Both the position numbers and the translations under genes were made by a program. Below are positions 2,376-52,232 of a stretch of 64,000 nt of DNA, piece by piece. The notes below the pieces were generated by a model. That model saw only the letters and a program-made list of their open reading frames with translations, ran no database searches and was not told where the DNA came from. Origin of the DNA: Haliovirga abyssi (GTDB lineage Bacteria > Fusobacteriota > Fusobacteriia > Fusobacteriales > Haliovirgaceae); NCBI RefSeq assembly GCF_030295325.1, contig NZ_AP027059.1, positions 2,356,001 to 2,420,000 on the forward strand, written 5' to 3'. Positions within the stretch are counted from its first letter, which is position 1. The number at the start of each line of letters is the position of its first letter.

Positions 2376-3131
2376 TTATTTATCTTTTTTAAAGAATTTA
2401 ACCAAAGCATATAAAAGTGTCATAGGATGTGGTGGACATCCAGGAACAAACAGGTCAACTTTAAATAGATTACTTACACCATTTAATTGCTCTTTATTAT
2501 CTCTAAATACTCCTCCAGATAATGCACAAGCTCCCGAAGCTATTACAACTTTTGGATTTGGAACTGCCTCATACGCTTTTTTTAACGCATATTCCATATT
2601 TTTAGTTACAGGCCCTACAATTAATAATCCATCAGCATGTCTTGGAGATGCTGCAAATTGTATCCCAAATCTTGACAAATCATAAACTGGAGTATTTAAT
2701 ACATTAATATCTGCCTCACAAGAATTACATCCTCCAGCTGAAACAACTCTAAGCTGCAAAGCTCCTCCAAATATTTTTTTAAAATATTCTTTACTCTCTA
2801 TTTCCATTTTTTTATTTTCTTTATCTATTATCAAATCATTTTCATTTGTAACACCCATCTCAAAATTTTGAGAAAATTTAACAAATTCTCCATTAGCAAC
2901 TCTTTCACATTCACCACAAAAAGTACATTTTCTCAAATCAATACTTTTATTTTCTACATTAATAGCATCTTGAGGACATATTTTTGCACACTCTTCAACT
3001 ACTTCTTTAGAACATTCAGGATTAATTACCGGTACTCCTCTATAATTTTTAGGAAGAGAAATTTTCCCTTTTGGATATTTAGATGTTCTATTCCCTTGCT
3101 CCGCTCTATTTTTAATTATATCTATAAACAT
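2376..3131 (-). CDS. Ferredoxin-NuoB/HyfI-like fusion, small subunit of Ehr complex
   Basis: This 251-aa protein fuses an N-terminal ferredoxin-like module to a complex-I 20-kDa/hydrogenase small-subunit domain (NuoB, HyfI, HycG family). In the small-subunit domain the proximal [4Fe-4S] ligands look complete: C135 and C138 (GCNSCEAD), C202 (SGACALSGG) and C232 (VPGCPPHP). In the ferredoxin part only six cysteines are visible (C40, C48, C52 followed by Pro, C69, C72, C75), and the second motif ends in VAN where CP is expected. At most one normal [4Fe-4S] cluster is therefore secured. It is the last gene of the Ehr operon and is separated from the large-subunit gene by 385 bp of repeats, whereas the other junctions overlap or nearly touch. 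Role: electron wire from a soluble donor to the membrane arm. Confidence 0.85.
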   Translation of the reverse strand: MFIDIIKNRAEQGNRTSKYPKGKISLPKNYRGVPVINPECSKEVVEECAKICPQDAINVENKSIDLRKCTFCGECERVANGEFVKFSQNFEMGVTNENDLIIDKENKKMEIESKEYFKKIFGGALQLRVVSAGGCNSCEADINVLNTPVYDLSRFGIQFAASPRHADGLLIVGPVTKNMEYALKKAYEAVPNPKVVIASGACALSGGVFRDNKEQLNGVSNLFKVDLFVPGCPPHPMTLLYALVKFFKKDK

Positions 3132-3155
3132 TTTTATTACCTCACTTTTTTATGT

Positions 3156-3329
3156 TTTTCTTATATTTATTATTACTACTTTAATTCTTTCAGCACAAAG
3201 ACGCAAAGAACACTAAGATACACAAAGAAAACATTTTTTATTATTTGCGTATAAACGGATTATCCCTATATATAAGCCCCTCTTCGTGACCCTTTGCGCT
3301 CTCCTTTCTTCGTGCTGAATCTTTTATTC
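3156..3329. repeat. First unit of a ~174-bp tandem repeat
   Basis: This stretch is repeated almost unchanged at 3330-3502. Within the unit TTCAGCAC (3189-3196) is mirrored by GTGCTGAA (3312-3319), and AAAGACGCAAAG is mirrored by CTTTGCGC near 3292-3300. Each unit can therefore fold on itself. It lies between two subunit genes of one operon. Confidence 0.8.
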
Positions 3330-3502
3330 TTTTCTTATATTTACTATTAATACTTTAATTCTTTCAGCACAAAGACGCAAAAACTCTAAGATACATTAAG
3401 GAAACATCTTTTATTATTTGCATATAAACGGATTATCCCTATACATAAGCCCCTCTTCGTGACCCTTTGCGCTCTCCTTTCTTTGTGCTGAATCTTTTAT
3501 TC
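3330..3502. repeat. Second unit of the ~174-bp tandem repeat
   Basis: It matches 3156-3329 with a few substitutions and small indels, with the same terminal TTCAGCAC (3363-3370) and GTGCTGAA (3485-3492). No convincing ORF or promoter is seen in it. Confidence 0.8.
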
Positions 3503-3516
3503 CTTTCTTCATCTCC

Positions 3517-5043
3517 CTACAAATCAAACCCACAATACGACAAATTAAAACTTTTATTACAAACAGGAAAATCAGCTATAGCTTCATTTCTTAATGCAAA
3601 TGCAAGTCCATCCCAATTATGAAAAGATGGGTCTTTTATCTTATATCTCAATATCTCGCTTTTAGAATCTGTAATCACACAATGAGAAAGCTCTCCTCTC
3701 CATCCTTCCTGCATTGTTACAACCAAACTATTTACCCCTAACTCTATCTCTTTTTTCTCCTCATTTTCACTCTCTTTTTCCCCATAAAATTCCAACTCTT
3801 TCAAAAAACGTTCTACCAATTCAAATGACTCTTTAACTTCTCTATATCTCATTAATGCTCTAGCTAATACATCTCCTGATTTTTCTCTTATTTTCTCAAC
3901 TTTTACTTTTTCCCAAATTCCAGTTGGAAAACTATCTCTTACATCATATTTTATTCCACTTGCTCTTGCAGTAAATCCAACCATTCCAAGCTGTTCTGCT
4001 GTTTCTTTGTTTACTTTTCCTGTATCTTCAAATCTTCCAACTACTCCTGCTTGTGCAAATATCATATCCCCAACATGTATAGTCTCTTTTTTTAGTTGCT
4101 CCAATCTCTTTAAATAATCATTTTTTTGACTTTCACTAATTTCAAATCTTGCTTTTTTAGCTCTTATTAATCCTTTTCCAAATCTATTCCCGCAAATATC
4201 AAGCAATATATTTAAAAAATCTCCTCTCATTCTCCCATAATATGCTGCTGGTGGCAAAAATGCTACATCTCCACTAAGAGCTCCTAAATCTCCAACATGA
4301 TTTGCTATTCTTTCTAATTCCAAAGCTATTCCTCTTATTAAAAGTTGATTTTTATCTAATTTTATATCTGCCAAACTTTCTATTGCTTCTGAAAATGCTA
4401 TTGAATTCCCAATTGTTGTATCCCCTGCCACACTTTCTATTATTAATGGTAATTTTTTCATAGATGCTTTTAAAAGTTGCTTTTCTACTCCTCTGTGTTG
4501 ATATCCATGTTGTATTTCTAAATGTAAAACTTTTTCCCCTATACAATTAAATCTAAAATGACCAGGTTCTATAACTCCTGCATGAATTGGTCCCACTGCT
4601 ACTTGATGAATCTCTTCTCCTTCCACTTCATAAAATGGATAATTTCCAGGAATAACCTCTTTATAATCATTTTTAAAAGCATCCTTTTTCCCAGTATAAT
4701 TTTTGTGATATCTTAAAGATTTCATCCAGGGATGATTAATTATTTCTATTCCAAATTGTTCTGCTAACTCTCTTTCAAACATATTTAGTTGTGGAATTTT
4801 ATTTGTTAAACTTTCATATTTATTAGGTGCTTCTGTTATTCCTAACCATAATTTTTCTGTTCTTAATATTGCTACTAATTTTATTTTTTTATTTTCATCT
4901 TTAAATCCAAAATATTGAACTATTTTTGCATTTTTTTCAGACAATTCTAACATTTCATTATAAAAATCTTTAAACTCCATTATTGTAATATTCTCTAAAT
5001 TTATCTTTTCTCCATTTTTTATATTTATAAATTTATTATTCAT
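3517..5043 (-). CDS. HyfG/HycE-like large subunit lacking Ni-Fe ligands (Ehr complex)
   Basis: A 508-aa protein joins a NuoC-like 30-kDa domain (about 1-125) to a NuoD/hydrogenase large-subunit domain (about 145-508) with the family's HGYQHRGVEK signature (179-188). In active group-4 [NiFe] hydrogenases the next motif is a CxxC (RVCGIC type). Here the aligned residues are VAGDT (205-209), so both cysteines are replaced (Ala and Thr). The C-terminal DPCxxC is also absent: only C495 and C504 remain, far apart, in the CNKSFNLSYCGFDL tail. Without four ligands there is no Ni-Fe site. This is the hallmark of energy-converting-hydrogenase-related (Ehr) complexes, whose redox partner is unsettled. 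The start codon overlaps the preceding gene by 8 nt. Confidence 0.9.
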   Translation of the reverse strand: MNNKFINIKNGEKINLENITIMEFKDFYNEMLELSEKNAKIVQYFGFKDENKKIKLVAILRTEKLWLGITEAPNKYESLTNKIPQLNMFERELAEQFGIEIINHPWMKSLRYHKNYTGKKDAFKNDYKEVIPGNYPFYEVEGEEIHQVAVGPIHAGVIEPGHFRFNCIGEKVLHLEIQHGYQHRGVEKQLLKASMKKLPLIIESVAGDTTIGNSIAFSEAIESLADIKLDKNQLLIRGIALELERIANHVGDLGALSGDVAFLPPAAYYGRMRGDFLNILLDICGNRFGKGLIRAKKARFEISESQKNDYLKRLEQLKKETIHVGDMIFAQAGVVGRFEDTGKVNKETAEQLGMVGFTARASGIKYDVRDSFPTGIWEKVKVEKIREKSGDVLARALMRYREVKESFELVERFLKELEFYGEKESENEEKKEIELGVNSLVVTMQEGWRGELSHCVITDSKSEILRYKIKDPSFHNWDGLAFALRNEAIADFPVCNKSFNLSYCGFDL

Positions 5044-6463
5044 GAATCATACCTCCAATCACTGCTACTGCACTTGTCATTATATCTGAAATTTGGTTTA
5101 TTTGCATATAACAAAGCACCAAAGATGTAAATAGCAATATATATTGTGGATAAACTCTCCATCTGTTTTCTTTTACTTTAGGCTCTACTTCTGATTCTCC
5201 AAATGACATTTTTACCACATATTTTGAAAGTCCTGCAAATATTAAAATTAAACTTAACACAAATATTCCAGCACTTATATATGCACCTCTTCTTAATGCA
5301 CCCAAAACTATAAAAAACTCACTAAAAAATAGTCCAAATGGAGGAAATCCAGCTATTCCAATAAACCCAGCAAACATTATAATCGCTGTTTTAGGTAAAA
5401 ATTTGAATATATTTCCAACTTTATCTATTAATTTAGTTTTATAACTCATTAGCACATTTCCTGCTGATAAAAACAGAGAAGATTTTATCAAAGCATGATG
5501 AACTAAATGAAACATAGCACCATATGCAGCTATTCCGCCTATTCCTGTTCCAAATGCAATAATACCCATATTTTCTATACTTGAATAAGCCAACATTCTT
5601 TTATAATCATATTGTTTTAATATAAATACCGCTGCTACAACTGTTGATAATAGTCCTAATATTATTAATGATACATCTGCAAATTTCCCTAATTCTGCCA
5701 AATGCAATATCCTACTCATTTTAAATATTCCCAAAAATGCTGTATTTAACAAAGCTCCTGAAAGTAATGCTGAAGCTGGACTTGGAGCTTCACTATGTGC
5801 ATCTGGAAGCCAAGTATGCATTGGAGCAAGTCCCATTTTTGTTCCATACCCAATTAATATAAATAAAAATCCTATTTTTAACCAATCTTTATTTAATAAC
5901 ATTGCATTTTTTTCTAATTCTGTAAAATTCAAATTTATACTTAATCCAGCTTTATCTCTTGCTATTGCTATTAAAAATGTTCCAAGTAGCGCTAATGCAA
6001 TTCCTACAGAACACACTAACACATATTTCCAAGTTGCTTCTAATGCTGTTTTTGTCTTATGAACATATATAAGTGGAGCACTTGTTAAGCTTGTTGCCTC
6101 TACCGATATCCAAAACAGTATTAAACTATTTGAAATTGCAACAGAACTCATTGATGCTAAGAAAAATAGCATAGAACTTGTAAAAAGTTTTTCATTTTCC
6201 ATCTTCTCTTCTTTTAAATAAGAAACTGTATAAATTGATATCATAAAAAAAAGATATGATGTCACCGCTAAAACTAATATTCCTTCTGGTTTTATTCCTA
6301 CATATTCATTAAATAATGGAACTGAAATCCCCCTCCAAATTAAAATTGTAAATATAATGTGAATTAAACCAGTAATTGGCAAAAGCCATCTTCCATATTT
6401 GTTTTTCACCAATAATGATAATATTCCTGCTATAATTGGTATTAAAATAACTAACTCAGCCAT
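5036..6463 (-). CDS. HyfF-like antiporter-type membrane subunit (NuoL/M/N family)
   Basis: A 475-aa polytopic membrane protein, almost entirely hydrophobic helices. It carries the conserved helix pair of the proton-translocating antiporter-like family: the glutamate in FWISVEATSL and the lysine/His track GYGTKMGLAPMHTWLPDAHSEAPSPASALLSG. These residues are typical of ion-pumping subunits, so the membrane arm seems functional even though the large subunit has no Ni-Fe site. It overlaps the large-subunit gene downstream and follows the HyfE-like gene after 4 nt, in a tight operon. It is shorter than NuoL and corresponds best to HyfF. Confidence 0.9.
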   Translation of the reverse strand: MAELVILIPIIAGILSLLVKNKYGRWLLPITGLIHIIFTILIWRGISVPLFNEYVGIKPEGILVLAVTSYLFFMISIYTVSYLKEEKMENEKLFTSSMLFFLASMSSVAISNSLILFWISVEATSLTSAPLIYVHKTKTALEATWKYVLVCSVGIALALLGTFLIAIARDKAGLSINLNFTELEKNAMLLNKDWLKIGFLFILIGYGTKMGLAPMHTWLPDAHSEAPSPASALLSGALLNTAFLGIFKMSRILHLAELGKFADVSLIILGLLSTVVAAVFILKQYDYKRMLAYSSIENMGIIAFGTGIGGIAAYGAMFHLVHHALIKSSLFLSAGNVLMSYKTKLIDKVGNIFKFLPKTAIIMFAGFIGIAGFPPFGLFFSEFFIVLGALRRGAYISAGIFVLSLILIFAGLSKYVVKMSFGESEVEPKVKENRWRVYPQYILLFTSLVLCYMQINQISDIMTSAVAVIGGMIHE

Positions 6464-6467
6464 ATTA

Positions 6468-7103
6468 TTACTCCTTTAAATTTTTTAGTTTTGAACTATT
6501 TATATCGTGAAATGTAATATTTATTTGTTGAAGTACAATTACCATAATCATCACTCCAACTAAAATATCCAATAATACTCCAAATTCAACAATATATCTA
6601 CTTTTATTTGATAGGGTTATTCCTATTAAATAAATTCCATTTTCCATCATTAAATATCCTATTATTTGAGTTATCGTTTTTCTTCTAGATGTCAGCAAAA
6701 ACATACCTGATATTATAGTTGCCATTGCTGTAATCCCGAGTAAATTCCCACCAATTGGGAAATGCACTTTATTTCCTAAATATGTTGATAAAACTATTAT
6801 GAATAAGGCTATAAACATCGAAAAATTATACCCTATAATTGGCTCTATCTCTTTTTTTATTTTAATTTTATTAAATACACTCATTAACAACCAAGGAATT
6901 AAAAATCCTTTTACAGTCAAAGTTATTAATATAAATATAGCTGTTATTGTTGAAATTTTTTCTTCTAAAAACATAGGCATTATTGAAACTAATGCTCCTT
7001 GCAAAAACATAACCATAATCAAAATTCTTAACCTACTAGAATTAAGTGCAAAAATAAGCGATAGCAATATTACGGAAAGCATTATATGTGATATTGTAAT
7101 CAT
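6468..7103 (-). CDS. HyfE-like membrane subunit (NuoK related)
   Basis: A 211-aa protein of about six or seven hydrophobic helices, resembling the HyfE subunit of group-4 complexes (a NuoK-like core with extra helices). MMENGIYLIGITL fits the NuoK-like segment with its buried glutamate, close to the family's proton-path residue. It overlaps the upstream HyfC-like gene by 4 nt. Assignment rests on length, hydrophobicity and position between the HyfC and HyfF homologues, plus this motif. Confidence 0.8.
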   Translation of the reverse strand: MITISHIMLSVILLSLIFALNSSRLRILIMVMFLQGALVSIMPMFLEEKISTITAIFILITLTVKGFLIPWLLMSVFNKIKIKKEIEPIIGYNFSMFIALFIIVLSTYLGNKVHFPIGGNLLGITAMATIISGMFLLTSRRKTITQIIGYLMMENGIYLIGITLSNKSRYIVEFGVLLDILVGVMIMVIVLQQINITFHDINSSKLKNLKE

Positions 7104-8020
7104 TTTAACCTCCCTAAAATAATTATATTTGCAAAAAAGACTAATGCAAAAGATGTTAATATATATTTAGGAACTTTAGTAAATCTAAATCTTGCCATAA
7201 TAGATTCTACAATTCCAATAAACAGATATATTAAAGCAACAACTATATAAAATACTATTATGTCTACCCAGAAATTTCTAAAAGAAAACGGAACTATTAA
7301 TCTTGCTATAAACACTGAATAAAACATAAGTTTCATATTAGCTCCAAGATGTATAAGCCCTAATTCTGGTCCACTATGGTCAAGCACCATAACTTCATGA
7401 ATCATTGTAAGCTCTAAATGTGTTGCATGGTCATCTACTGGTATTCTTGAATTTTCTGTAAGCAAAATCATAAATAGCGATATGATTATTAACATTAACG
7501 AAGCTCCATACATCCCCCATAAATTCATACCATTTGCAATTGATAAACTTTTAGAAAAACTTATAGTTCCAGTTATTTTTTGTATAAATATAAATGTCAT
7601 AAACAGAGTTAATTCTGCTATAATTGAAAAATAAGCTTCTCTACTAGCTCCCATTCCTTCAAAAGCCGATCCTGTATCAAGTGCTGCTAATATTGTGAAA
7701 AATCTTCCTAATGCCATAAGATAAATTATAAAAATCATATCTCCTTTAAATGAAAATATTGAATTTACCCCTCCAAATGGAAAAAACATTAAAACTACTG
7801 TTATTACTGAAAATGATATTATTACACTCATTCTAAAAATAAACGTTGTAGTCTCACTATAAACAGAGCTTTTATATTTAAAAAGTTTTATTAAAGTATA
7901 ATAATTAATAAATATTGAAGGTCCCTTTCTACCTGCAAAGAATGCTTTTACTTTCAATATTATTGCTGCAAATAATGGTGAAATTAAAACAGTTAAAACA
8001 AATAATATTATAGATTTCAT
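7100..8020 (-). CDS. HyfC-like membrane anchor (NuoH family)
   Basis: I place the start at the ATG at 8020 (306 aa), preceded by GAGGTGGTAATAAA and overlapping the HyfB-like stop by 4 nt (ATGA). A longer in-frame extension to 8107 is charged, overlaps HyfB heavily and has no ribosome site. The protein is the NuoH/HycD/HyfC family, the quinone-site or junction subunit linking the peripheral and membrane arms. GRKGPSI near the N-terminus, GMGASREAYFSIIAELTLF and ENSRIPVDDHATHLELTMIHE are the family signatures with their acidic residues intact. About eight membrane helices. Confidence 0.9.
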   Translation of the reverse strand: MKSIILFVLTVLISPLFAAIILKVKAFFAGRKGPSIFINYYTLIKLFKYKSSVYSETTTFIFRMSVIISFSVITVVLMFFPFGGVNSIFSFKGDMIFIIYLMALGRFFTILAALDTGSAFEGMGASREAYFSIIAELTLFMTFIFIQKITGTISFSKSLSIANGMNLWGMYGASLMLIIISLFMILLTENSRIPVDDHATHLELTMIHEVMVLDHSGPELGLIHLGANMKLMFYSVFIARLIVPFSFRNFWVDIIVFYIVVALIYLFIGIVESIMARFRFTKVPKYILTSFALVFFANIIILGRLK

Positions 8021-9990
8021 TTTATTACCACCTCTACTATTAATAACAATACTATTCCTCCTACAATATATAATATGTAGGCATGAAGGTCTCCAGATTG
8101 TATCCATCTTAATTTATCCATCACTGCTAAAACTGGTCTTACAATGTATTTCATTATAAAATATTCTGCTATGTCTATTGTTTTAGAATGATATTTACTT
8201 TTTTTAGGAAATAATCCTTCAACTTCTATTGTTTTTTCTTCTATTTTTATAAATGGTTTAAAAAAATTAACTATCTCCATTGCATATGAACTACCTGTAT
8301 ATTGCATTTTTGATGTTCCATATTTATATCCACAACCCCAAGTAACACTTTTTTTATTCTTTGAATTTATATAAAATATTTTCCATAAAATATATACTAC
8401 AATTAATACTCCTAAAAATATCATTGCTCCAAATGTTATTTCAGATGGAATTGTTAATGTTGGCATAACTGCATCTTTTGACACAAACCAAAATGTTTTT
8501 ACAATATTTGACACTACATTAATAGGTAATGCTGGTAAAATTCCAATTGAAATACACACTAATGCCAATATTTCCATTGGAAGTGTCATTTCCCATTTAC
8601 TTTCAACAGCTTTTGCTGCTTTTTCATTTCTTGCATTTCCTAAAAATACCACTCCAATCACTTTTGTAAAACAAGCTGCTGCTAATCCGCCTATTATAGC
8701 AAGTGACAAAATTACAAATGTAGCAAAAGCAAATGAAACTCCACTTCCACTGTTAATTCCACTAAATCCAGCAAAATATATTAAAAATTCACTTACAAAT
8801 CCGTTAAATGGTGGTACTCCTGATATAGCTAATGCTCCTACTAAAAATGTTATTCCTGTAATCTTCATATTTTTCATCAAACCACCCATTTGTTCTATAA
8901 CTTCAAGCTTAGTTTGATGTAAAACAGAACCTGCTCCCATAAATAGCAATGATTTAAACAGTGCATGATTTAATATATGTAATATCCCACCAGCAAATCC
9001 AAATATAGCCATTGTACTATTTCCAATAGAAACTCCAACCATTCCAATTCCTAATCCAGTGGTAATTATTCCTATATTCTCAATACTGTGATATGCCAAT
9101 AATTTTTTCAAATTATGTTGTCCTAAAGCATATACAACTCCTAAAACTCCTGATATTGCTCCAATTATTACTACCATATAACTTATGGAAATCATATTTG
9201 TATGTAAAATAAGATACATTTTTATAATTCCATAAATCCCAATTTTTATCATAACTCCTGACATAATTGCAGATACTTGACTTGGTGCCACAGGATGTGC
9301 ATAAGGCAGCCACACGTGAACAGGAAACAATCCTGCTTTTGAACCAAATCCAATAAATGCTAATATAAATGCAATTAATTTTATGTTATCAGGTATATTT
9401 CCAATTGTGTCAAATCCAAAACTTTTTGTATACGCATAAATCAATCCAAATGAAGCAAAAATTGCCATTCCTCCAATGTGAGTAAATACAAAATATACAT
9501 AACCTGCTTTTCTAACTTTTTCTTTATTATAGTCATAAATAACTAAAAAGAATGCTGATAAAGACATAACTTCCCAAGCAAATGCAAATGTAAGTAAATT
9601 ATTTGCAATTACTACTAAAATCATAGATACCACTAATATAGAATAAAAAAAGTAATTCCCAGCTACCCTTAATGCTTTTTTTCTATTCTCCATATATGAA
9701 TACCCATATAAAGCTCCTAACATACCAACAAAGCATATAATCGTTATAAAAAATGCTGATAATGGTGTTACTTTAAATTCCATTGGGAAATGCATTAGTC
9801 CACTGTATTTCACTATATCAGGATAGTTCCCTGTTAATAACTCTTTAATAGCTGTAATAACTCCCAATATTGAACCTAATCCAATAAAAAAGACTGCTGT
9901 TACTCTCATAAAAGTAAAATTTTTATATAAAACTAATGGCAAACTGCCACCTAATAATATAAAAAAAATTACTACCCAAATAGTGCCCAT
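8017..9990 (-). CDS. HyfB-like antiporter-type subunit (NuoL related)
   Basis: A 657-aa membrane protein with about sixteen helices and a cytoplasmic linker near residues 550-600. The proton-antiporter core shows the glutamate helix FAWEVMSLSAFFL and the lysine/His helix FGSKAGLFPVHVWLPYAHPVAPSQVSAIMSG. HILNHALFKSLLFMGAG is the further conserved His/Lys helix. This is the largest pumping subunit of the complex and the first structural gene of the operon, beginning 25 nt after the regulator gene. An AGGAGAGG ribosome site precedes the ATG at 9990. Confidence 0.9.
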   Translation of the reverse strand: MGTIWVVIFFILLGGSLPLVLYKNFTFMRVTAVFFIGLGSILGVITAIKELLTGNYPDIVKYSGLMHFPMEFKVTPLSAFFITIICFVGMLGALYGYSYMENRKKALRVAGNYFFYSILVVSMILVVIANNLLTFAFAWEVMSLSAFFLVIYDYNKEKVRKAGYVYFVFTHIGGMAIFASFGLIYAYTKSFGFDTIGNIPDNIKLIAFILAFIGFGSKAGLFPVHVWLPYAHPVAPSQVSAIMSGVMIKIGIYGIIKMYLILHTNMISISYMVVIIGAISGVLGVVYALGQHNLKKLLAYHSIENIGIITTGLGIGMVGVSIGNSTMAIFGFAGGILHILNHALFKSLLFMGAGSVLHQTKLEVIEQMGGLMKNMKITGITFLVGALAISGVPPFNGFVSEFLIYFAGFSGINSGSGVSFAFATFVILSLAIIGGLAAACFTKVIGVVFLGNARNEKAAKAVESKWEMTLPMEILALVCISIGILPALPINVVSNIVKTFWFVSKDAVMPTLTIPSEITFGAMIFLGVLIVVYILWKIFYINSKNKKSVTWGCGYKYGTSKMQYTGSSYAMEIVNFFKPFIKIEEKTIEVEGLFPKKSKYHSKTIDIAEYFIMKYIVRPVLAVMDKLRWIQSGDLHAYILYIVGGIVLLLIVEVVIK

Positions 9991-10015: not shown

Positions 10016-10696
10016 TTATATTTTTTTTCTTCTTTCCATTATTTCATCCCATTCAACTTTTTTTAATCTTATAAACTCAATAATTTTTTCTTTTGATTGA
10101 AGCTCCAGCATATCTAGAAACTCCTTATTACGAGATAAAAAAGATATTTTAGCCAATAATTCTATATGTCTCTCTTTTCTAGCACTCAAAATTAAAAATA
10201 ATGTATGTATTTTTTTACCATCCAAAGCATTATAATCTATTGGCTTTTTTAAAAAACATACAAAAACTCTCTCATCTTCTATCTCCTCAATAACTTTCTC
10301 TTGAGGATGAGGCACTGCTATTCCATTTCCTATTCCTGTAGATATCATCTCTTCTCTTTTTATTAATTCTTCAATTAATTTATCTTTTTTCAAATTTACA
10401 GGCAATTTAATAATTCCCACCATATTTTCTATTACCTCTTTTACATCATCTCCTTCTACTTCATAAAACCCACCTTTTCCCAATAAATCTGGCAAATTAA
10501 TCGGTTCTTCATCTTCTATTTCTTTTTTTCTATTTACCATTTTATTTTCTGAAATCCACCTGTTTATCTCTTCTTCACTAAAACGATATTGCCCATTGAT
10601 TTTATAAGCAGGTATTTTCCCTGATTTTATCCAACGGTAAATAGTTTTTTCCGATACATTTAAAATCTCCGTAATATCAGCAATTTTTAAGTTCAT
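10016..10696 (-). CDS. Excisionase-type HTH fused to PTS EIIA domain, putative regulator of the Ehr operon
   Basis: A 226-aa protein. Residues 1-50 are a MerR/excisionase-type helix-turn-helix (IADITEILNVSEKTIYRWIKSGKIPAYKI region). Residues about 70-220 are an EIIA domain of the PtsN/fructose type with the phosphorylatable histidine H130 in IAVPHP after STGIGNG. Fusions of this form are known as PTS-sensing regulators; phosphorylation by the PTS phosphorelay may control DNA binding. It is the first gene of the operon that encodes the Ehr complex, behind a consensus promoter, so it probably controls the operon, itself included. The EIIA resembles that fused to the ClC channel at 18395-20191. 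Confidence 0.85.
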   Translation of the reverse strand: MNLKIADITEILNVSEKTIYRWIKSGKIPAYKINGQYRFSEEEINRWISENKMVNRKKEIEDEEPINLPDLLGKGGFYEVEGDDVKEVIENMVGIIKLPVNLKKDKLIEELIKREEMISTGIGNGIAVPHPQEKVIEEIEDERVFVCFLKKPIDYNALDGKKIHTLFLILSARKERHIELLAKISFLSRNKEFLDMLELQSKEKIIEFIRLKKVEWDEIMERRKKI

Positions 10697-11784: not shown

Positions 11785-14721
<2,937 letters not shown>

Positions 14722-17177: not shown

Positions 17178-18386
17178 CTATTCTTTTATTTCACCAGATT
17201 TTTTTAATACCAATTTTGTTAAAAACGGTCCAATCACTTCTGTTATCATTGTTGTAAATAATAATATGTTTATAACTACTAAAGCGATATCTTTACCTTT
17301 ATCTCCATAAAGGGGTATGCTAAAGTTTTTCTTTATAGACAACGCTAACGCTAATGCTACTCCAACTTGAGGCAATAATGCAAAGCCTATATATTTTTTC
17401 ACTTTATCTGTTGCTCCTCCAATAACCGCTCCAAGGCTGGCTCCTCCTATCTTTCCTATACTTCTAGCAAAAAAATAAAGCATTCCAATTCCACCTATTT
17501 GCTTTACTACTCTTATATCTAAATGCGCTCCTCCTAAAATAAAAAATGCTGCTAAAAAAATAGGAACAAAAAAATCGACTATTTTACCACTTCTTTTTTC
17601 TATTATTGGTGATAAATTTGTTATAAAAGCTGAAAAAATCATTATTGTTAAAAGTTCCGATATATGAAACTGTTCTGTAACTCCTAATAACATTAGTATA
17701 AATGCTGTTATCATTAACTCTATTGTATCTTCGTTTCTTATGTTCTTCATAATAAAAATATAGACATATGCTGCTACAATTCCAATAACAGCTGATAATC
17801 CAATGGATATTAAAGCATTAATTAATATAGTGACGCTACTAATGTGTTCCCCTAGTATCATTCCTTTGGCAAAACTAGATGCAAATACATATATAATTAA
17901 TGCTACTGCATCGTCTATTCCTACCACTGCTATAATTGTTGATGTAAGGCTTCCTTTTGCCTTATACTGCCTTATTACAGCTACTGTCGCTGCTGGTGCT
18001 GTCGCTGCAGCAACAGACCCTAGTAATAGTGCTTTATACATTTCTCCTTTAAATACAAATGCTAAAGTAAAAAAAACTATTATAAAAGCTCCAAAACTTT
18101 CAAAAAAAACTATTGCAGTTATTGATTTTCCAAGTTTTTTTATTGTAGACAGTTTCAATTCAGCTCCAATTGTAAATGCTATTATTCCTAAAGCTATAGT
18201 TGATAAATATCCTAATTTATCAACTACATCATTTGTTAATATTTTTAATATTGATTCCCCTAACAACACCCCTACAATTACATAGCCTGTAACTTCTGGT
18301 ATTTTAAATTTTTGAGTAAATTTCTTTGTCAAAAATGCTGCAAAAAACAGCATTCCTAAATAAAATAAAACATTTATTTCTTTCAT
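17178..18386 (-). CDS. Cation:proton antiporter (CPA family, KefB/NapA-like core)
   Basis: 402 aa with about 12-13 membrane helices and no C-terminal RCK domain. FKIPEVTGYVIVGVLLGES near the N-terminus and IIAVVGIDDAVALIIYVFASS in the middle (the acidic pair GIDDA, ion-binding in this family) are typical of CPA2-type Na+ or K+/H+ exchangers. It starts 8 nt downstream of the ClC-EIIA gene and is followed by the PII-like gene, so all three form an operon. The transported cation cannot be told from the sequence. Confidence 0.85.
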   Translation of the reverse strand: MKEINVLFYLGMLFFAAFLTKKFTQKFKIPEVTGYVIVGVLLGESILKILTNDVVDKLGYLSTIALGIIAFTIGAELKLSTIKKLGKSITAIVFFESFGAFIIVFFTLAFVFKGEMYKALLLGSVAAATAPAATVAVIRQYKAKGSLTSTIIAVVGIDDAVALIIYVFASSFAKGMILGEHISSVTILINALISIGLSAVIGIVAAYVYIFIMKNIRNEDTIELMITAFILMLLGVTEQFHISELLTIMIFSAFITNLSPIIEKRSGKIVDFFVPIFLAAFFILGGAHLDIRVVKQIGGIGMLYFFARSIGKIGGASLGAVIGGATDKVKKYIGFALLPQVGVALALALSIKKNFSIPLYGDKGKDIALVVINILLFTTMITEVIGPFLTKLVLKKSGEIKE

Positions 18387-18394
18387 TACCCCTC

Positions 18395-20191
18395 CTAAAA
18401 TTCTTTGAATATATCAACAATATCTTCCGCTTTTTTAGAATTAAATAGTTTTTCTCTTCTACTTTCATTTTTTACAAGTAACATTAATTTAGATATTATT
18501 TTTAAATATTTTTTTTGTTTTCCTTCTGGTCCCCCAATTAAAAATACCACTCCAACTGGCTTTCTATCTATTGAATCCCAATCTAATCCTTGTTTTGCTA
18601 CTCCCACAATTATAAAAAATTCATCTATATCATCTAGTTTAGCATGTGGCATTGCTATTCCTAATCCTATTCCTGTACTAACTATATCTTCTCTTTCAAA
18701 AATTGCATTTTTAAATTCTTCTATATCTTTTATATGTCCTTTCTCTTTTGCTTTTGCTATCATTACTTCCAACGTATCCTTGACACCTGTTGTTTCTAAA
18801 AATGTTACATCATCCTCGTTTATCAATTCATGTAATTTCACTTTTACCCCTCCTCCAAAATTAACCGATTTTAATTTTTCCATTATATCATCTATGCCAT
18901 CATTTTGAAAATTAACTTCTGTATTTTCTATCTCTTTTCCTATTTCTATATCCAAAGCTCCGGATTTTTTCATTGCTAATATTTGAGACGGATATACGCT
19001 TCTATGCCCAGAAATTAAAAAACTAATTACACATGCAACTGCAGCATATGGAGAAATTTCTACTCCAAACAGTTCTATTGCCATTATACTGGCTGCTATT
19101 GGAGCATTCGTTGTTCCCGCTAATACTGCTACAAATCCAATAGCAGAAAACAGTGCTATTGGCTCATTTATTAATTGGGCAAATAAATTCCCTGATGTAG
19201 TTCCTATATAAAATATAGGTGTAACAATACCTCCACTTCCTCCAAATCCAAGACTTAATGCTGTAAATATCATTTTAAAAAATGAGGTATACCATGGTAA
19301 AATTTCGCCTGTCAAACTTCTTTTTATTGTATCTATTCCTAGTCCTAAATAACTTTCAGAACTAACAAATACTAACCCTATTATTAATATTCCTCCTAAA
19401 AAACCTTTTATGCTTTCATCTAGTTTTATTTTTTCTATATTCTTCTCTAAAAATTTTAATATTTCTATAAACAAAAATGATATTACTCCAAAAAATATGC
19501 CAGCTAAAATTACTTTCAAATACATAGTTTCACTAAAATTTGTAATACTAGAAAAATCTATTTTAAAATACGAATATTTTATTCCTAGTGACCTTGCCAC
19601 TTGATACGCCATTACTCCAGATATAAATGATGGTAACAATACATCATATAAAATTGTTCCTATAAATAAGACTTCTACTCCAAAAATTGCACCTGCTATT
19701 GGAGTTCCAAAAACTGCGGCAAATCCTCCACTAATTCCACATATAACAAATTTTTTTCTATCATTCTCTGAAAACTTAAATAAATCTGCTATCCAAGAAG
19801 CTGTTCCTCCACCTATTTGCGCTCCAGGTCCTTCTTTTCCAACTGAACCACCTGACATAATTGTCAATACTGTAGCCACTAACTTTACCGGTATTACTGA
19901 AAAATTTATTTTTCCATTATTTTTATGTACCGCTTCTATTACTTTTTCTGTTCCGTGTCCTTTTGCATCAGGAGCAAAATATTTTACCAATAAAATACTT
20001 ATTACAATTGCAAAAGGAAGAAAATAATAATATTTAACAGGTAATACTCCTCTATATTCTATACTCTTATCTAAAATCATTAAAAATATTGTAGTTAACC
20101 CTCCAACAACAACACCTATAATTGTAGCTAAAAAAGCCCATTTTAAAACACTTAGAAACATTACTGTTCCTTCTACCATTTTTTTCTTCAT
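18395..20191 (-). CDS. ClC chloride channel/antiporter fused to a PTS EIIA domain
   Basis: 598 aa. Residues about 10-420 are a ClC transporter: KGHGTEKV (first selectivity segment in this clade), SGGSVGKEGPGAQIGGG with the gating glutamate E120, FAAVFGTPIAGAIFGVE, and GSGGIVTPIFYIG. Residues about 450-598 are an EIIA domain of the PtsN type with STGIGLGIAMPHAKL, the phospho-accepting histidine being H516. Fusion of an ion channel to EIIA implies gating by the PTS phosphorelay; this is inference from domain content. A second EIIA fusion, the putative Ehr regulator, lies at 10016. The gene is the first full-length one in the three-gene ion operon, preceded by a leader with a tiny ORF. Confidence 0.92.
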   Translation of the reverse strand: MKKKMVEGTVMFLSVLKWAFLATIIGVVVGGLTTIFLMILDKSIEYRGVLPVKYYYFLPFAIVISILLVKYFAPDAKGHGTEKVIEAVHKNNGKINFSVIPVKLVATVLTIMSGGSVGKEGPGAQIGGGTASWIADLFKFSENDRKKFVICGISGGFAAVFGTPIAGAIFGVEVLFIGTILYDVLLPSFISGVMAYQVARSLGIKYSYFKIDFSSITNFSETMYLKVILAGIFFGVISFLFIEILKFLEKNIEKIKLDESIKGFLGGILIIGLVFVSSESYLGLGIDTIKRSLTGEILPWYTSFFKMIFTALSLGFGGSGGIVTPIFYIGTTSGNLFAQLINEPIALFSAIGFVAVLAGTTNAPIAASIMAIELFGVEISPYAAVACVISFLISGHRSVYPSQILAMKKSGALDIEIGKEIENTEVNFQNDGIDDIMEKLKSVNFGGGVKVKLHELINEDDVTFLETTGVKDTLEVMIAKAKEKGHIKDIEEFKNAIFEREDIVSTGIGLGIAMPHAKLDDIDEFFIIVGVAKQGLDWDSIDRKPVGVVFLIGGPEGKQKKYLKIISKLMLLVKNESRREKLFNSKKAEDIVDIFKEF

Positions 20192-38917: not shown

Positions 38918-40231
38918 CTAATCAATTTTTAATATATTCATCACATCTTTAATTATAACATTAATAAATTTTTCTTGAAAAGATTTTCCACCAACTTCTT
39001 TTAAAATTTCTGATATTTTTTTTAACTCTAAATCTTCAATTTTATTTAATTTTTTCATACTTGTATCTTTTATCTTCTCATCTGATAAATTTTTTATGTA
39101 ATTTTCTCTGTTATATCCAATTAATTTAATATTTTTATTATAACGTTTTTTTAATTTATCTGCTATAATCAATCCTTCTGGATCTAAATCTCCAGAATAT
39201 ATAAGTTTTATGTCGCTTTTAACTGCTAAATCCATTAAAAATAGTGCTGATGATTTTATATTACCATATCCACAAATCATAGGAATAATAATATTATATT
39301 CAACTTTAAAATAGTTAAATATCTCTATAAATACAGCTGGATTCTCAACTATAATCAAATAATTATAGTTAGAAATAATTTTTTTTAATTTTGTAATTCC
39401 TGTCATAGGCATAATAAAATATTCGCCATTATTATAAAATTCTCTCCAGCCAGTGTGCCTTCCTTTTGCTATTTCTGCTTCTAATCCTGATATTGCCACG
39501 CTATTTGAAATGTCATCTGTAATTATACCTGCTTCAATATACATTTCAATTCTCTCTTCCGCATTTGTTGGATATTTCTTATTTAAATAATATGATATTC
39601 CATATAAAAGTAACTTTCCAGCAAAATTTTTATTGTCAAAAAAGTGTGGGTCTTTTGATATATCTGATGCAAATATTGCTAAAAGTTTATACTCTTTTTT
39701 GATTATAGGTAAATTATTTAGACCTTTTATTATTCTTTCTATTATAATTTCAAATTCATTAAGATTATTTTCTTTTTCAAATTTATTATATTCTTTTATT
39801 AAAATATTATTCCCTTTATTTCCTTCAATTAAAAATTTTAAAAATTCTCCGCCTACTGTTTCTGCATACCATTCATATAAGTCGACAAAAAACTTTTCTC
39901 TTTGTTTTTCATAATTTTCCATTTTATCTTTTTTGTATATAATATTTTCATTAAAATAAATTTCTAAAGCCAATTTAAAATTATCATTTGAAAAGTTCAT
40001 ATTATTAAAACTTTTTATTATATTTTCTATTAAAATTGTTTTTTTACCTATCTCGTAATTTTCTCCTGTAATTTCAGAAAGAGCTGATTTCTCAGCTCTT
40101 GACAGTTTTTCTTTTTTTATTTTTCCTAAAAATTTTCCAAATGACTCATATTTATTTTTAATAATTATTAAAATTTTTCTTAAATCTTTTTTAGATTTTA
40201 AATATTTCACTAATTCCTGCTCTTTAGTCAT
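38918..40231 (-). CDS. jetD: Wadjet defence protein JetD (toprim nuclease subunit)
   Basis: 437 aa. The N-terminal two thirds are helical (resembling DUF3323/TIGR02679-type). The C-terminal part is a TopoVI-A-like toprim domain (DUF2399-like): GLEAEIAKG, YLIIVENPAVF with the conserved Glu, ICGYGNIKSSA, and YSGDLDPEG with D348 and D350. In Wadjet systems JetD is the endonuclease that cuts plasmid DNA extruded by the JetABC SMC complex. It is last in the operon, 38 nt after jetC. All visible active-site acids are present, so it looks functional, unlike the relic at 31146. Confidence 0.85.
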   Translation of the reverse strand: MTKEQELVKYLKSKKDLRKILIIIKNKYESFGKFLGKIKKEKLSRAEKSALSEITGENYEIGKKTILIENIIKSFNNMNFSNDNFKLALEIYFNENIIYKKDKMENYEKQREKFFVDLYEWYAETVGGEFLKFLIEGNKGNNILIKEYNKFEKENNLNEFEIIIERIIKGLNNLPIIKKEYKLLAIFASDISKDPHFFDNKNFAGKLLLYGISYYLNKKYPTNAEERIEMYIEAGIITDDISNSVAISGLEAEIAKGRHTGWREFYNNGEYFIMPMTGITKLKKIISNYNYLIIVENPAVFIEIFNYFKVEYNIIIPMICGYGNIKSSALFLMDLAVKSDIKLIYSGDLDPEGLIIADKLKKRYNKNIKLIGYNRENYIKNLSDEKIKDTSMKKLNKIEDLELKKISEILKEVGGKSFQEKFINVIIKDVMNILKID

Positions 40232-40269
40232 ATTATTCTCCTAATTTTTTCTTCTCAACTCTTTATCCT

Positions 40270-43200
40270 CTAAAACATCTTCATATTCCCGCTTTTATTA
40301 TCGTATAATTCTTTCCCCACTACAGCTGTTCTTTTATTTCCATTCCATTTATATCTAAATACTGTTACTACATCAGAATTATTTGGTCTATATAATTCAG
40401 CTATTGCAAGATTTGGTATTGTTCCATAATCTCCCCATAAAACCTGAGAATTAACTATAAAATCAAATTTCATATTAACCATAAATTCAAACATTACACT
40501 AATATTTCTTTCATCTACTCCTGCAAAAGCTTCATCAAGAGATATTATTTTTGGCGCATCTTTTGAAGCATTGTCATATCTGGCACTTACTGCTGCGAAC
40601 AGCGGAACATACATTGTCATTGCTTTTTCTCCGCCACTAAATTTATAAAATTCATTTTGAGTTAATTGTTTTTTTAGTCCCTCTCCTCTTTTTACTGATA
40701 ATTTAAATTCATACCACTCTCTATAATCCAGCAACTCTTTCATAATTGTATGAAATGATTTAATATTATCCTCTTTCTCCATCTCTTTTTTAGCTTCTGC
40801 TATTTTTGATTTAAAATGAGATACTATTTTCGTTATATCTTCTGTTCTTCTTGTAAATTCATCTTTTCTTAATAATTTAACAAGCTCACTTGAATTCATC
40901 TGTTCCTCATTATCTGGTTTTCTTCCAGCCCAACTTAATCCAAGTCTTATTGTATTAGTATTCATACTCTCCATTAATTTATTCATATTAAAAACCCAAA
41001 TTTCGCTTTTTTCAATTTTTTCTGTAATTCTTTTACTAATTGTTTTTATTAATATCTCTTCAAAAAGCTCTCTCTCTTTATCTGCTAATAGTTTTTCATC
41101 TCTTAATATATTTTCTTCTATATCTGATAATATATGTATAAGATTTGTCTTTTCTCCTCTTATTTTTCCTATTACATCAACTCTTTTTAATTCTCCTAAA
41201 ACTTCATTAATAACTCCATTTATAGGCTCATTAAATCTATATTCCATATTAAGTCTATAATCTGATAAATAGTTTTTTGATATTAAAAACTTATTATTAA
41301 GGTCATTAGAATACTCTATCCCTTTATCTATATCAATATTTCCTGATAATCTTTGTGATAATGCCTTTAATTCACTTTTATTGCTAATATCCAGCTCATT
41401 AACTACATACGCTAAATTTACCTCTTCATATAATCCTTTTTTCCAAGACGATTCTAACTCTTTTAAATTTTCGCTTTCTTGCTCTATTTTTATTAAATTT
41501 TCTTTTAAATTTTTTATTTCTGATTCTATTGAGCTTATTCTCATTATAGTTTCATTAAAATTTTTCTCATTTTCTTTACGTTTTTCTTTTAATTGTGCCA
41601 ATTGCTCTACTAAATTTTCTATTCCTTCTTGTTCTGCTCTTTTTTCTAACTCTTCCAATATTTGCTTTTGTGTATCTAACGCTTTTTTAATTTTATTTAA
41701 ATTTAATTTTATATCTTCAATTTCATCTTCTACATTTTCAATATTTTCTATTAATCTATCTATTCTTTGCCCAAAATCTAAAAATCTTTTATATTTATTT
41801 TCTATTTCCAAAATATTATATCTGTATTTTTCAATTAAATCCAAAGCTTCTGTAAATGATTCTAAATCTAAATTAATTTTTGTTCTTACTCTTAACTCGT
41901 TTACTTTTTCATTTAAACTATTTTTTCTCTGTCTAGCAATTAATTCTTCTTTCTCCTTTTCCTCTATTTGGTAAAATTTCATCTGTTTTTCTCTTTTTAA
42001 TATATTTATATTTTCCATTATTTCTTCTATTTGAATAAAATCAGGTATATTTTCAAACTCTTTTTTTAACATCTCTTTTCTATTTTTTAGATTAGATAAT
42101 TTTTCTTCTATTTTTGCTTTTTCTAAATTTAAACTCTCAATCTTTTCTTCAAGCAATTTTATTAGCTCTTTTTTATAATTTTCTCTTGCACTTATTCCTA
42201 TAAATTTTGCTTTATTAATTTTTGTTGTTTTTCCTTCAATTGGACCATAACTATATTTTCCCTCTATACCAATAAAAAATTCTCCACTTTTTTGATTAAC
42301 AGGGATAGATTTTAATATTTTTTCAATATACTCTTTCTCTTCTTCGTTATATTTAGCTTCTACTTTTAAATAATTAAATAAATTTTTATTTTCTCTGTTT
42401 TCTTCAGATATATTTTTATCATCTCTATTTTTATTATACGTCTTTAATAATTTTATCCCCTCTTCAATATCCAATTTTGGCATTTCATTATCAAATAAAA
42501 TTATTGAGCTAATTATATTTGTATCAATTAATATCTCTTCAATTATCCCTTTTGTTTCCTCAGATATATTTTCTCTAAAATCAACTGTTTTCCAAAACAT
42601 ATCATATTTTATTTTTAGACTATCCAACTTTTTACAATATTTTTTTTCTTTTTCTTCAATTTCATATATAGGGTCTTTTTTTGATTTCCACTCATCTATT
42701 TCATCACTTTTTTCTTGAATTTTTTCATTTAAATTTTCAATATGAAACCTGTTTTCAATAACCTCTTTTTCTATATTATTACTACATCTATTAAAAATGT
42801 TTTTATATTTATATTTAATATCCAAAATATATTTTTTTTCATCACAACTATTTACTGCTATAATTATATCTTCTAAATCTTTTTCTTGGAAATTCAATTC
42901 TTTAGTTTCACTTGCATATTTTTCTAATTTCTCTAAATATATCTCTTTAGAATTATCAGATTTCTTTTCTTCATTTACAATCTCTTCCTCAATTTTTCTT
43001 AATTCATCTTTTAAATCATCTACTATTTTTACTATTTTATCATATTCTTCACAGCTTTTTTTATAATTTTCTATTATAATTTTTCCATTCCTAAAAAAAT
43101 CTTTGAAAATATCTGTCTCTTTTTTTAATAATTCAAAATTATAATCTTTATCCAATTTTGAAAAAAACTCTTTTCTAAAATTTATATCTTCTGAAAAATT

Positions 43201-44394
43201 AATTTCATTAGCCCTCTCTCTGTTTTCATCTATTAAGCTGTTTAATTGACTATATAAAACCTCTTTATCATTTTTAAGAGAATTAATTTCAGAATATTTT
43301 ATATTTCTATCCTCTTCTCTTCTTTCGAGTCTTCTGTTTTCTGTTTCAAAATCCTCTTTTTTCTCTTTTACATATGATTTTATATCTAAAATTTCTTTTT
43401 GTAATTGATAAAATTCGCTTTTTTCATATGTCTCTATTAAATGATTTATACTCTCTTTTTCAGCTTCAAGTTTATCTCTTTTTGTTATTGACTCATTTTT
43501 CTGATTATTAATATTTAAAATATATTTTTCCGTTCTTTTTAATTCTGATATATTTTTGTCTAAGTTTTCTTTAGCTTGAATATATTTGTTTAATTTTTTT
43601 AATAAAATATATGAATTATATTTATCGTAAGCTCTTTTTATTTTTTCAGATTCTCGTTTTGCATTTTTTAAAGATTTTAAATTATCTTGAAGTTCATCCA
43701 TATTTTCTACTGCTTCTGTTAAAGGTCTTAATTCATCATCAGATATAGGCTCTAATGAACCTTTTAATATTTCATAAGTTGCACTTGGTTTGAAATTTTT
43801 AGATAATTTTGGACTTCTAAGATTTATTAATAGATTAACTAAATCTTCATATTCTTTTACAGTTTCAAATCCAAATATATATCTATTAACCATAGCCACA
43901 TAATCGCTTTGTTTATCAACAACTGTCCCGCCATTTCCAATTGCATTTTTTAGCTCCATTTTAGACAATGGAACTTTATTTACTTTCTCTTTATATAAAT
44001 AAAAATCTCGTCCAATTCTTCTTCCATCATCTATACAAAAATACCATGTCCTTGTTGCAGTTCCACGTTTTGCTCTAATTCCCATACCAAATGAAATATA
44101 CTCACCTGTTTTCTTCTTTAACTCCATATAAAGATAACCTGTATTTTCATCATACTCTGTTCCTTCCGGAAGTATATATGAATCTATTCTTCTTGCTCTT
44201 GAACCAAAAGGATCTAATCTTTCAGGTCTTACACTTCCGTCAAGAAGCAACGGTATAAAACTCTGCATAGTTACTGACTTTCCAGAACCATTAGAACCTC
44301 TTAATAACAATTTTCCATCTTCTAATGTAAACTCTTCATCATCATAATACCAAAAATTTATCAACCCAAATCTCTTTATTTGCCATCTATTCAT
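40270..44394 (-). CDS. jetC: Wadjet defence protein JetC (SMC-like ATPase)
   Basis: 1374 aa. It starts MNRWQIKRFGLINFWYY, followed by Walker A GSNGSGKS (33-40) and LDPFGSRARRIDSYIL, as in the TIGR02680 family. A very long coiled coil (about 260-1190) is interrupted by a hinge-like region. The C-terminal head has the signature FSGGEK (1252-1257) and Walker B LDEAF (1286-1290). This is the MukB-like motor that extrudes DNA loops in Wadjet. The start overlaps jetB by 8 nt. Length and ends fit the type III subgroup better than type I. Confidence 0.9.
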   Translation of the reverse strand: MNRWQIKRFGLINFWYYDDEEFTLEDGKLLLRGSNGSGKSVTMQSFIPLLLDGSVRPERLDPFGSRARRIDSYILPEGTEYDENTGYLYMELKKKTGEYISFGMGIRAKRGTATRTWYFCIDDGRRIGRDFYLYKEKVNKVPLSKMELKNAIGNGGTVVDKQSDYVAMVNRYIFGFETVKEYEDLVNLLINLRSPKLSKNFKPSATYEILKGSLEPISDDELRPLTEAVENMDELQDNLKSLKNAKRESEKIKRAYDKYNSYILLKKLNKYIQAKENLDKNISELKRTEKYILNINNQKNESITKRDKLEAEKESINHLIETYEKSEFYQLQKEILDIKSYVKEKKEDFETENRRLERREEDRNIKYSEINSLKNDKEVLYSQLNSLIDENRERANEINFSEDINFRKEFFSKLDKDYNFELLKKETDIFKDFFRNGKIIIENYKKSCEEYDKIVKIVDDLKDELRKIEEEIVNEEKKSDNSKEIYLEKLEKYASETKELNFQEKDLEDIIIAVNSCDEKKYILDIKYKYKNIFNRCSNNIEKEVIENRFHIENLNEKIQEKSDEIDEWKSKKDPIYEIEEKEKKYCKKLDSLKIKYDMFWKTVDFRENISEETKGIIEEILIDTNIISSIILFDNEMPKLDIEEGIKLLKTYNKNRDDKNISEENRENKNLFNYLKVEAKYNEEEKEYIEKILKSIPVNQKSGEFFIGIEGKYSYGPIEGKTTKINKAKFIGISARENYKKELIKLLEEKIESLNLEKAKIEEKLSNLKNRKEMLKKEFENIPDFIQIEEIMENINILKREKQMKFYQIEEKEKEELIARQRKNSLNEKVNELRVRTKINLDLESFTEALDLIEKYRYNILEIENKYKRFLDFGQRIDRLIENIENVEDEIEDIKLNLNKIKKALDTQKQILEELEKRAEQEGIENLVEQLAQLKEKRKENEKNFNETIMRISSIESEIKNLKENLIKIEQESENLKELESSWKKGLYEEVNLAYVVNELDISNKSELKALSQRLSGNIDIDKGIEYSNDLNNKFLISKNYLSDYRLNMEYRFNEPINGVINEVLGELKRVDVIGKIRGEKTNLIHILSDIEENILRDEKLLADKERELFEEILIKTISKRITEKIEKSEIWVFNMNKLMESMNTNTIRLGLSWAGRKPDNEEQMNSSELVKLLRKDEFTRRTEDITKIVSHFKSKIAEAKKEMEKEDNIKSFHTIMKELLDYREWYEFKLSVKRGEGLKKQLTQNEFYKFSGGEKAMTMYVPLFAAVSARYDNASKDAPKIISLDEAFAGVDERNISVMFEFMVNMKFDFIVNSQVLWGDYGTIPNLAIAELYRPNNSDVVTVFRYKWNGNKRTAVVGKELYDNKSGNMKMF

Positions 44395-48684: not shown

Positions 48685-48881
48685 TTTTACCTCCTATTGC
48701 TTTATAATCTATCTTTAAATTTATAACTATTTTTCTATTACTTTTCAAATTTGAAATCTATCCATATAAAATTTTATTAAATTTTTATTTTATTTTCTAT
48801 CTGCCCCTATCCGCCTTTATCTCGTGGTTAAAATTTATTTTTTCTTCTATCTTCTCATTATAAATTTTCAATTATACTTTT

Positions 48882-50435: not shown

Positions 50436-50625
50436 TTTTACAACCTCCGCTTGTTTTATCATTTATCTTTAAATTTATAATTGCTTTTCTATTATTATTA
50501 TATCTTCTACTCCATTATTTAGCATATTTGGAATCTACTCCTACAAAAAAATTTTTTGAATTATCACTATATCTTCTATGCTTCTATCTTCTCATTGTTA
50601 ATTTTTCATTATCAATTATCTCTTA

Positions 50626-52176: not shown

Positions 52177-52232
52177 TTTTACAACCTCCATTAGTTTGCC
52201 TTGTTTCAATTTCTTTTTTATTATATTATGAT

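Follow-up and report, generated by a model that had tools for sequence, protein, structure and literature searches.

The bacterium Haliovirga abyssi carries a complete ehr operon whose large subunit, EhrL, has lost all four cysteine ligands of the [NiFe] site and in which the former metal pocket appears to have been rebuilt. With slightly better than even confidence, we propose from the sequences that this complex is a ferredoxin-driven ion pump whose electron acceptor would be neither the proton nor a quinone. An earlier note on this DNA had suggested that the complex may couple ferredoxin or another redox step to ion pumping, and such a coupling seems plausible to us, since the proximal cluster is complete, the ferredoxin domain carries one complete cluster, the antiporter residues are intact and a proton-transfer glutamate, E159, is retained. 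In the mechanism that we envisage, reduced ferredoxin would dock at the small subunit, EhrS, and electrons would pass from its N6b-type cluster, by way of the proximal one, to an acceptor within the rebuilt pocket of EhrL. This pocket would be made up of I158, D208, T209, D259, D471, N496, K497, S502 and G505 and would receive its protons from E159. Reduction of the acceptor would then shift the loops that lie between EhrL, the HyfC-like subunit and the antiporter-like ones, and this movement would drive H+ or Na+ outward.

The operon lies in the window, by which we mean the whole analysed stretch of 64,000 nucleotides (contig NZ_AP027059.1), and its features are listed in Table 1. Read along the minus strand, it runs from an HTH-EIIA gene over the HyfB-, HyfC-, HyfE- and HyfF-like genes to ehrL and ehrS; it is complete, all seven reading frames are open, and it includes no NADH module. 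Across ehrL, the plus strand is interrupted by stops throughout. The identity of the complex as Ehr is supported by the composition of the cluster, the gene order, family-specific residues and the tree.

Table 1. Features of the ehr locus (positions in the window)
Feature	Position	Strand	Remark
EhrS, small subunit of the NuoB/HycG type, fused to a ferredoxin domain	2376..3131	-	four proximal-cluster cysteines and one complete N6b-type cluster
Direct repeat in two copies, spaced by about 174 bp, between ehrL and ehrS	3141..3509	no strand	
EhrL, NiFe-less hydrogenase/NuoCD-type large subunit, 508 aa	3517..5043	-	
EhrL codons 491-508, DFPVCNKSFNLSYCGFDL	3520..3573	-	C-terminal NiFe CxxC lost (S502, G505)
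VAGDT, EhrL codons 205-209	4417..4431	-	where the N-terminal NiFe motif VCGIC stood
EhrL E159 codon	4567..4569	-	counterpart of the MbhL E21 proton-transfer glutamate
HyfF-like antiporter-type membrane subunit	5036..6463	-	
HyfE-like (NuoK-containing) membrane subunit	6468..7103	-	
HyfC/NuoH-like membrane anchor	7100..8020	-	likely start MKSII; listed ORF extends to 8107; altered coupling loop THLELTMIHE
HyfB/NuoL-like antiporter-type membrane subunit	8017..9990	-	
HTH and PTS EIIA_2 regulator	10016..10696	-	first gene of the operon

By Pfam, EhrL consists of a 30-kDa domain (NuoC/HycE N-terminal) and a 49-kDa domain (NuoD), with Complex1_49kDa as its top match, and it stays below the threshold of the NiFe-hydrogenase model. 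Its cysteines are at positions 167, 284, 455, 495 and 504. Alignment with E. coli HycE and HyfG sets V205-A206-G207-D208-T209 against VCGIC and N500-L501-S502-Y503-C504-G505 against DPCYSC, such that the four NiFe cysteines are replaced by A206, T209, S502 and G505, and both the loss and the position of VAGDT in the place of the CxxC motif are as the earlier note had described them. Its proposal that C495 and C504 stand in for the C-terminal CxxC did not hold up, since these are only neighbours of the lost positions; of the 111 Ehr large subunits, 95 have C495 and 74 have C504. A displaced CxxC pair, which had been set beforehand as a refutation of the loss, was sought through the whole of EhrL, and none is present. 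We have thus rejected the idea that EhrL is a hydrogenase with displaced ligands, because the protein is without any CxxC; the CxxC motifs in six other Ehr large subunits are at unrelated, unconserved positions. Group 4 [NiFe] hydrogenases carry a C-terminal extension that is removed by a protease, and undergo Hyp maturation. Where the hydrogenase sequence reads DPCYSCTDR followed by M, EhrL reads NLSYCGFDL followed by the stop, and there is no processing tail; its last residue falls on what we take to be the position after which hydrogenases such as HycE are cleaved.

An AlphaFold2 model of EhrL, calculated from a 42-row alignment of window and genome loci with four plasmid-record rows left out, reached a pLDDT of 88 and a pTM of 0.90, and its closest structure (first rank in Foldseek) is HycE of formate hydrogenlyase (7z0s_E, TM 0.84). 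Residues 152-163 and 504-508, both of them pocket stretches, are poorly predicted, which makes the pocket geometry in the model uncertain.

The Ehr family (Ech-hydrogenase-related) was reportedly described by Coppi in 2005 and by Marreiros et al. in 2013. The family and its missing NiFe site are therefore already known, and Haliovirga provides a further member. Published accounts agree that Ehr is NiFe-less, with a function that is unknown or untested (PMC6349859, PMC10284858, PMC12342949, PMC7894505), though redox-coupled charge translocation has been suspected (PMC6349859). It is nonetheless common, and roughly every second genome of Nitrospirales is reported to carry it (PMC12342949). What is apparently new here is a fusobacterial Ehr with methanogen kin, the rebuilt pocket in quantified form, five broken proximal clusters, and an HTH-EIIA gene within the operon.

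Our collection comprises 111 large subunits, including five loci from a search of genome contigs as well as plasmid copies. EhrL was found in 87 of 395 sampled genomes of the phylum to which locus L002 belongs, in 17 of 395 genomes of Bacteroidota, in four of 36 of the phylum of a Methanothermococcus MAG, and in two of 98 of Fusobacteriota, namely Haliovirga abyssi and a member of another class. The gene order HyfB (one or more)-HyfC-HyfE-HyfF-EhrL-EhrS is kept in nearly all of about 100 loci. None of the 111 large subunits retains either NiFe CxxC pair and GD[T/S] at 207-209 is near-universal, which argues that the loss is not an effect of chance or sequencing. H154, I158, G207, D259, D471, S473, N496, K497, S498, Y503, G505 and D507 are invariant in all 111, D208 and E159 are present in 110, S502 and L508 in 109, and 109 have T or S at position 209. 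Several conserved residues (I158, D208, T209, D259, D471, S473, N496, K497, S502 and G505) differ from HycE, and their location at pocket positions indicates that the lost metal site has been rebuilt rather than left to drift. Strong purifying selection is seen in 13 close pairs, with dN/dS of 0.05-0.24 for EhrL and 0.06-0.26 for EhrS; at such values for EhrL, the genes are not dead.

In a tree of 113 rows made by a quick method, 110 Ehr rows are set apart from HycE, HyfG and NuoCD (SH-aLRT 99, with few outgroup rows and a long NuoCD branch). Haliovirga EhrL groups with three sequences of the methanogen phylum, among them the Methanothermococcus MAG (SH-aLRT 97), inside a clade of 14 rows (SH-aLRT 100), so that the closest kin of EhrL, judged by this tree, is Methanococcales. 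Since the genes flanking one of these loci (L003) look archaeal, this kinship is not an obvious contamination. It is a fair inference that ehr may have been transferred laterally between the fusobacterial and the methanogen lineage, in either direction.

With respect to the electron path, the proximal FeS cysteines of the small subunit do remain, as the earlier note had it: EhrS has C135, C138, C202 and C232, with a CxxC of the hydrogenase type. Its ferredoxin domain holds one complete [4Fe-4S] site of the N6b type (C52, C69, C72 and C75), and the N6a-type cysteine set is incomplete. All four proximal cysteines are found in 105 of the 111 Ehr, and three or four of them are lost in L078 and L079 (Bacteroidota), L157 (from the other fusobacterial class), L145 and L016; the truncated L005 was excluded from these losses. 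Nineteen Ehr have no ferredoxin domain. The EhrL motif is kept in all Ehr with a broken proximal cluster or without the ferredoxin domain, except L016. In this last locus, on an Allomeiothermus plasmid, EhrS (13278-14150) is without any proximal-cluster cysteine and the adjoining EhrL has a degenerate motif (AGGE). Given the five proximal-cluster losses and the 19 ferredoxin-less Ehr, electron flow to EhrL is not a universal Ehr function.

The pumping residues of the membrane arm, which had been described as retained, are so in the antiporter-like subunits, where the HyfB-like protein keeps E140, K218, H338, H342, K346 and E401 and the HyfF-like protein keeps E122, K209 and E382. The description holds only in part for the NuoH-like subunit, which keeps E165, D225, E232 and R306 but has A228 in place of E216 and H230 in place of E218. 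The latter exchange is found in all 109 readable Ehr, and the same loop has a three-residue insertion. This altered loop is thus Ehr-wide, unlike that of E. coli NuoH, HyfC and HycD, and in related complexes it faces EhrL.

The genome of this deep-branching fusobacterium (2.73 Mb in two contigs) is the sole representative of its family among 98 genomes of the phylum, Haliovirga abyssi being the one species in Haliovirgaceae, and its 16S rRNA is nearest to those of Ilyobacter, Fusobacterium and Cetobacterium, at about 85-86%. As had been noted earlier, there are no hyp genes near the ehr locus, and a targeted family search found no HypD anywhere in the genome. PF00374 (NiFe hydrogenase) had zero genome matches, and without HypD and PF00374 we conclude that the organism has no NiFe hydrogenase. 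The earlier view that EhrL is not a hydrogenase is thereby borne out by the four lost ligands, the missing processing tail, and the absence of HypD and PF00374 from the genome. H2 chemistry is likely left to two FeFe hydrogenases, one of which stands beside a HydB-like gene, and a second 51K-type gene looks RnfC-like (all assigned by length and place); together, the RnfC-type gene and the two FeFe hydrogenases point to a ferredoxin-based fermentation. The genome also has no UbiA-family gene, which was present in 14 of 14 controls, and no molybdopterin oxidoreductase. In EhrL, I158 and G207 take the positions of the Nqo4 quinone residues H38 and Y87, and this replacement, together with the missing UbiA family, argues that Ehr here is not a quinone reductase. 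Likewise, no Mo/W formate dehydrogenase is at hand as a partner in the absence of a molybdopterin oxidoreductase. Haliovirga thus removes NiFe hydrogenase, UbiA quinone synthesis and molybdopterin formate dehydrogenase as candidate partners, and the pocket residues invariant in 111 Ehr, along with the retained E159, offer concrete mutants.

It is possible, if unlikely, that the former NiFe pocket now forms a new active site, metal-free or with an organic cofactor, on D208, T/S209, D259, D471, K497 and S502, which would reduce an undiscovered small acceptor and which lineages without the proximal cluster would use without electrons. If this is true, the complex I superfamily would have a further terminal reaction besides those with protons, sulfane sulfur and quinone. 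The scattered losses in EhrS could also be read differently, in that the complex would be a redox-gated or purely ion-exchanging, Mrp-like cation/proton antiporter, with EhrL and EhrS as a sensory or structural cap, clusters that only gate, and a pocket that is a plug without turnover. We consider this rather unlikely. It would fit the loss of proximal cysteines at scattered places on the tree (L078/L079, L157, L145 and L016) with the EhrL motif staying in four of the five, the 19 Ehr without ferredoxin domain (two of these operons, by annotation, having no ferredoxin gene either) and the near-invariant antiporter residues, and the SulP genes beside some Ehr operons would suit a role in ion gradients. 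However, Haliovirga retains the four proximal cysteines, as do 105 of the 111 Ehr, purifying selection on EhrS is strong, and a redox-free cap offers no obvious reason for E159 in 110 of 111 large subunits.

A reduction of sulfane sulfur or polysulfide, as in archaeal MBS, in which electrons from ferredoxin would be passed to polysulfide at the proximal cluster and would thereby power the export of ions, appears improbable. In its favor, NiFe function and the H38/Y87 residues for quinone are missing from MBS as well (PMC7684303), EhrL has its nearest relatives in Methanococcales, including the Methanothermococcus MAG, and Haliovirga abyssi is by inference likely a marine vent species. Yet two of the NiFe cysteines survive in MBS, whereas Haliovirga EhrL keeps none of the four; the MBS proximal cluster has three cysteines and a shortened CxxC loop as opposed to the full CxxC and four ligands of EhrS; and MBS is without the counterpart of E159. 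Far less probable still is a ferredoxin:quinone or formate:quinone oxidoreductase like Fpo/NDH-1, or an FDH-Ehr of the Margulisbacteria type. The top Pfam match of EhrL, the FDH-Ehr complex proposed for Margulisbacteria (PMC6349859), and the rise of Geobacter Ehr proteins on formate (PMC7894505) would be in its favor, but with H38/Y87 replaced, no UbiA family member or molybdopterin oxidoreductase in the genome and no NADH module in the operon, both versions are close to refuted for Haliovirga. Finally, a 2026 Geobacter paper terms Ehr nonfunctional, since the NiFe site is lost (PMC13194489). That the operon is a decayed hydrogenase without function is hardly credible to us, because seven open frames, an operon order kept across phyla, the dN/dS values in 13 pairs and new invariant residues at the lost positions contradict it; the selection pattern speaks against a pseudogene, and selection and the rebuilt pocket together against the remark in that paper.

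The protein that heads the operon has an HTH part of the excisionase/MerR-like type and also heads Ehr operons in several phyla. A homologue was found in 53 loci, in 50 of them upstream of HyfB on the same strand and mostly within a few tens of bases, and its phosphorylatable histidine (H130) is kept in 48 of the 53. The protein probably ties expression of the ehr operon to PTS phosphorylation. Two genes for PTS enzyme I are present in the genome. A literature search that missed many journals found nothing on a link between HTH-EIIA and Ehr or on the Ehr of Haliovirga abyssi. The recurrent gene provides a regulatory handle on the operon. The repeats between ehrL and ehrS are imperfect, with 13-nt inverted ends (TTCAGCACAAAGA), and no further copy of their core motif turned up in the window; they may represent a small element with a mobile or regulatory role.

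Clustering of the genes next to Ehr operons returned mostly common regulators and ABC ATPases, and SulP alone stood out. SulP-type anion transporter genes lie upstream of the HTH-EIIA gene in five Bacteroidota loci (L085-L088 and L090) and by two operons in the phylum of L002 (L099, 1156-3303; L101, 931-3090); the signal is weak, as a single lineage accounts for all five Bacteroidota cases. Two different Ehr operons lie side by side on a Variovorax plasmid (L014, 6914-24794), only one of which has the ferredoxin domain; they are parted by genes including a spermidine synthase-like one. Similarly, in one genome (G594) about 14 kb separate an operon of the ferredoxin type from a ferredoxin-less one (L117 and L150), and a single HTH-EIIA gene lies between them. 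Elsewhere in the window, inspection by eye revealed a ClC-type chloride channel that bears an EIIA-like stretch (GIAMPH) at its C-terminus (18395-20191) and an adjoining Na+/H+ exchanger-like gene (17178-18386), a block of four genes, reminiscent of a Wadjet/Mks-type system, that includes a 1374-aa SMC-like protein (38918-47064), and a tandem array of three almost identical genes, each of about 516-527 aa, with an AAA-ATPase-like look (47134-52209).

Among known systems, the complex matches Ehr of, e.g., Geobacter sulfurreducens (GSU0739-45), likened here by its published subunit list (PMC7894505): both have NuoL-like, HyfC-, HyfE- and HyfF-like subunits, EhrL and EhrS. The NiFe cysteines are lost alike, and the large subunit belongs to the same clade as about 110 others that we collected, the difference being that the Haliovirga member sits in Fusobacteriota with its nearest kin in Methanococcales. 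With E. coli hyf it shares the gene order B-C-E-F-G-I, without D and H, and the proximal CxxC and E159 are common to it and to HycE/HycG/HycC and HyfG/HyfI/HyfB. In contrast to formate hydrogenlyase and hydrogenase-4, Haliovirga lacks the four NiFe cysteines, the cleaved C-terminal tail, HyfA, HyfD, HyfJ and the Hyp genes, and its ferredoxin domain is fused to the small subunit and has one complete cluster only. Pyrococcus MBS (6u8y) is alike in being NiFe-less and without the quinone residues, with a ferredoxin-wired peripheral arm and an ion-pumping membrane arm, but Haliovirga is the reverse of MBS with respect to the two NiFe cysteines, the three-cysteine proximal cluster and the missing E21-type glutamate (PMC7684303). 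Compared to complex I and Fpo, Haliovirga is without the quinone residues, the N6a-type cluster and the NADH module, has a proximal CxxC instead of CC, and has an altered NuoH glutamate loop; the folds of the 49-kDa, 30-kDa and 20-kDa subunits, the N6b- and N2-type clusters and the antiporter-like subunits are common to both, and the Ehr family bears on the relation of complex I to the hydrogenases.
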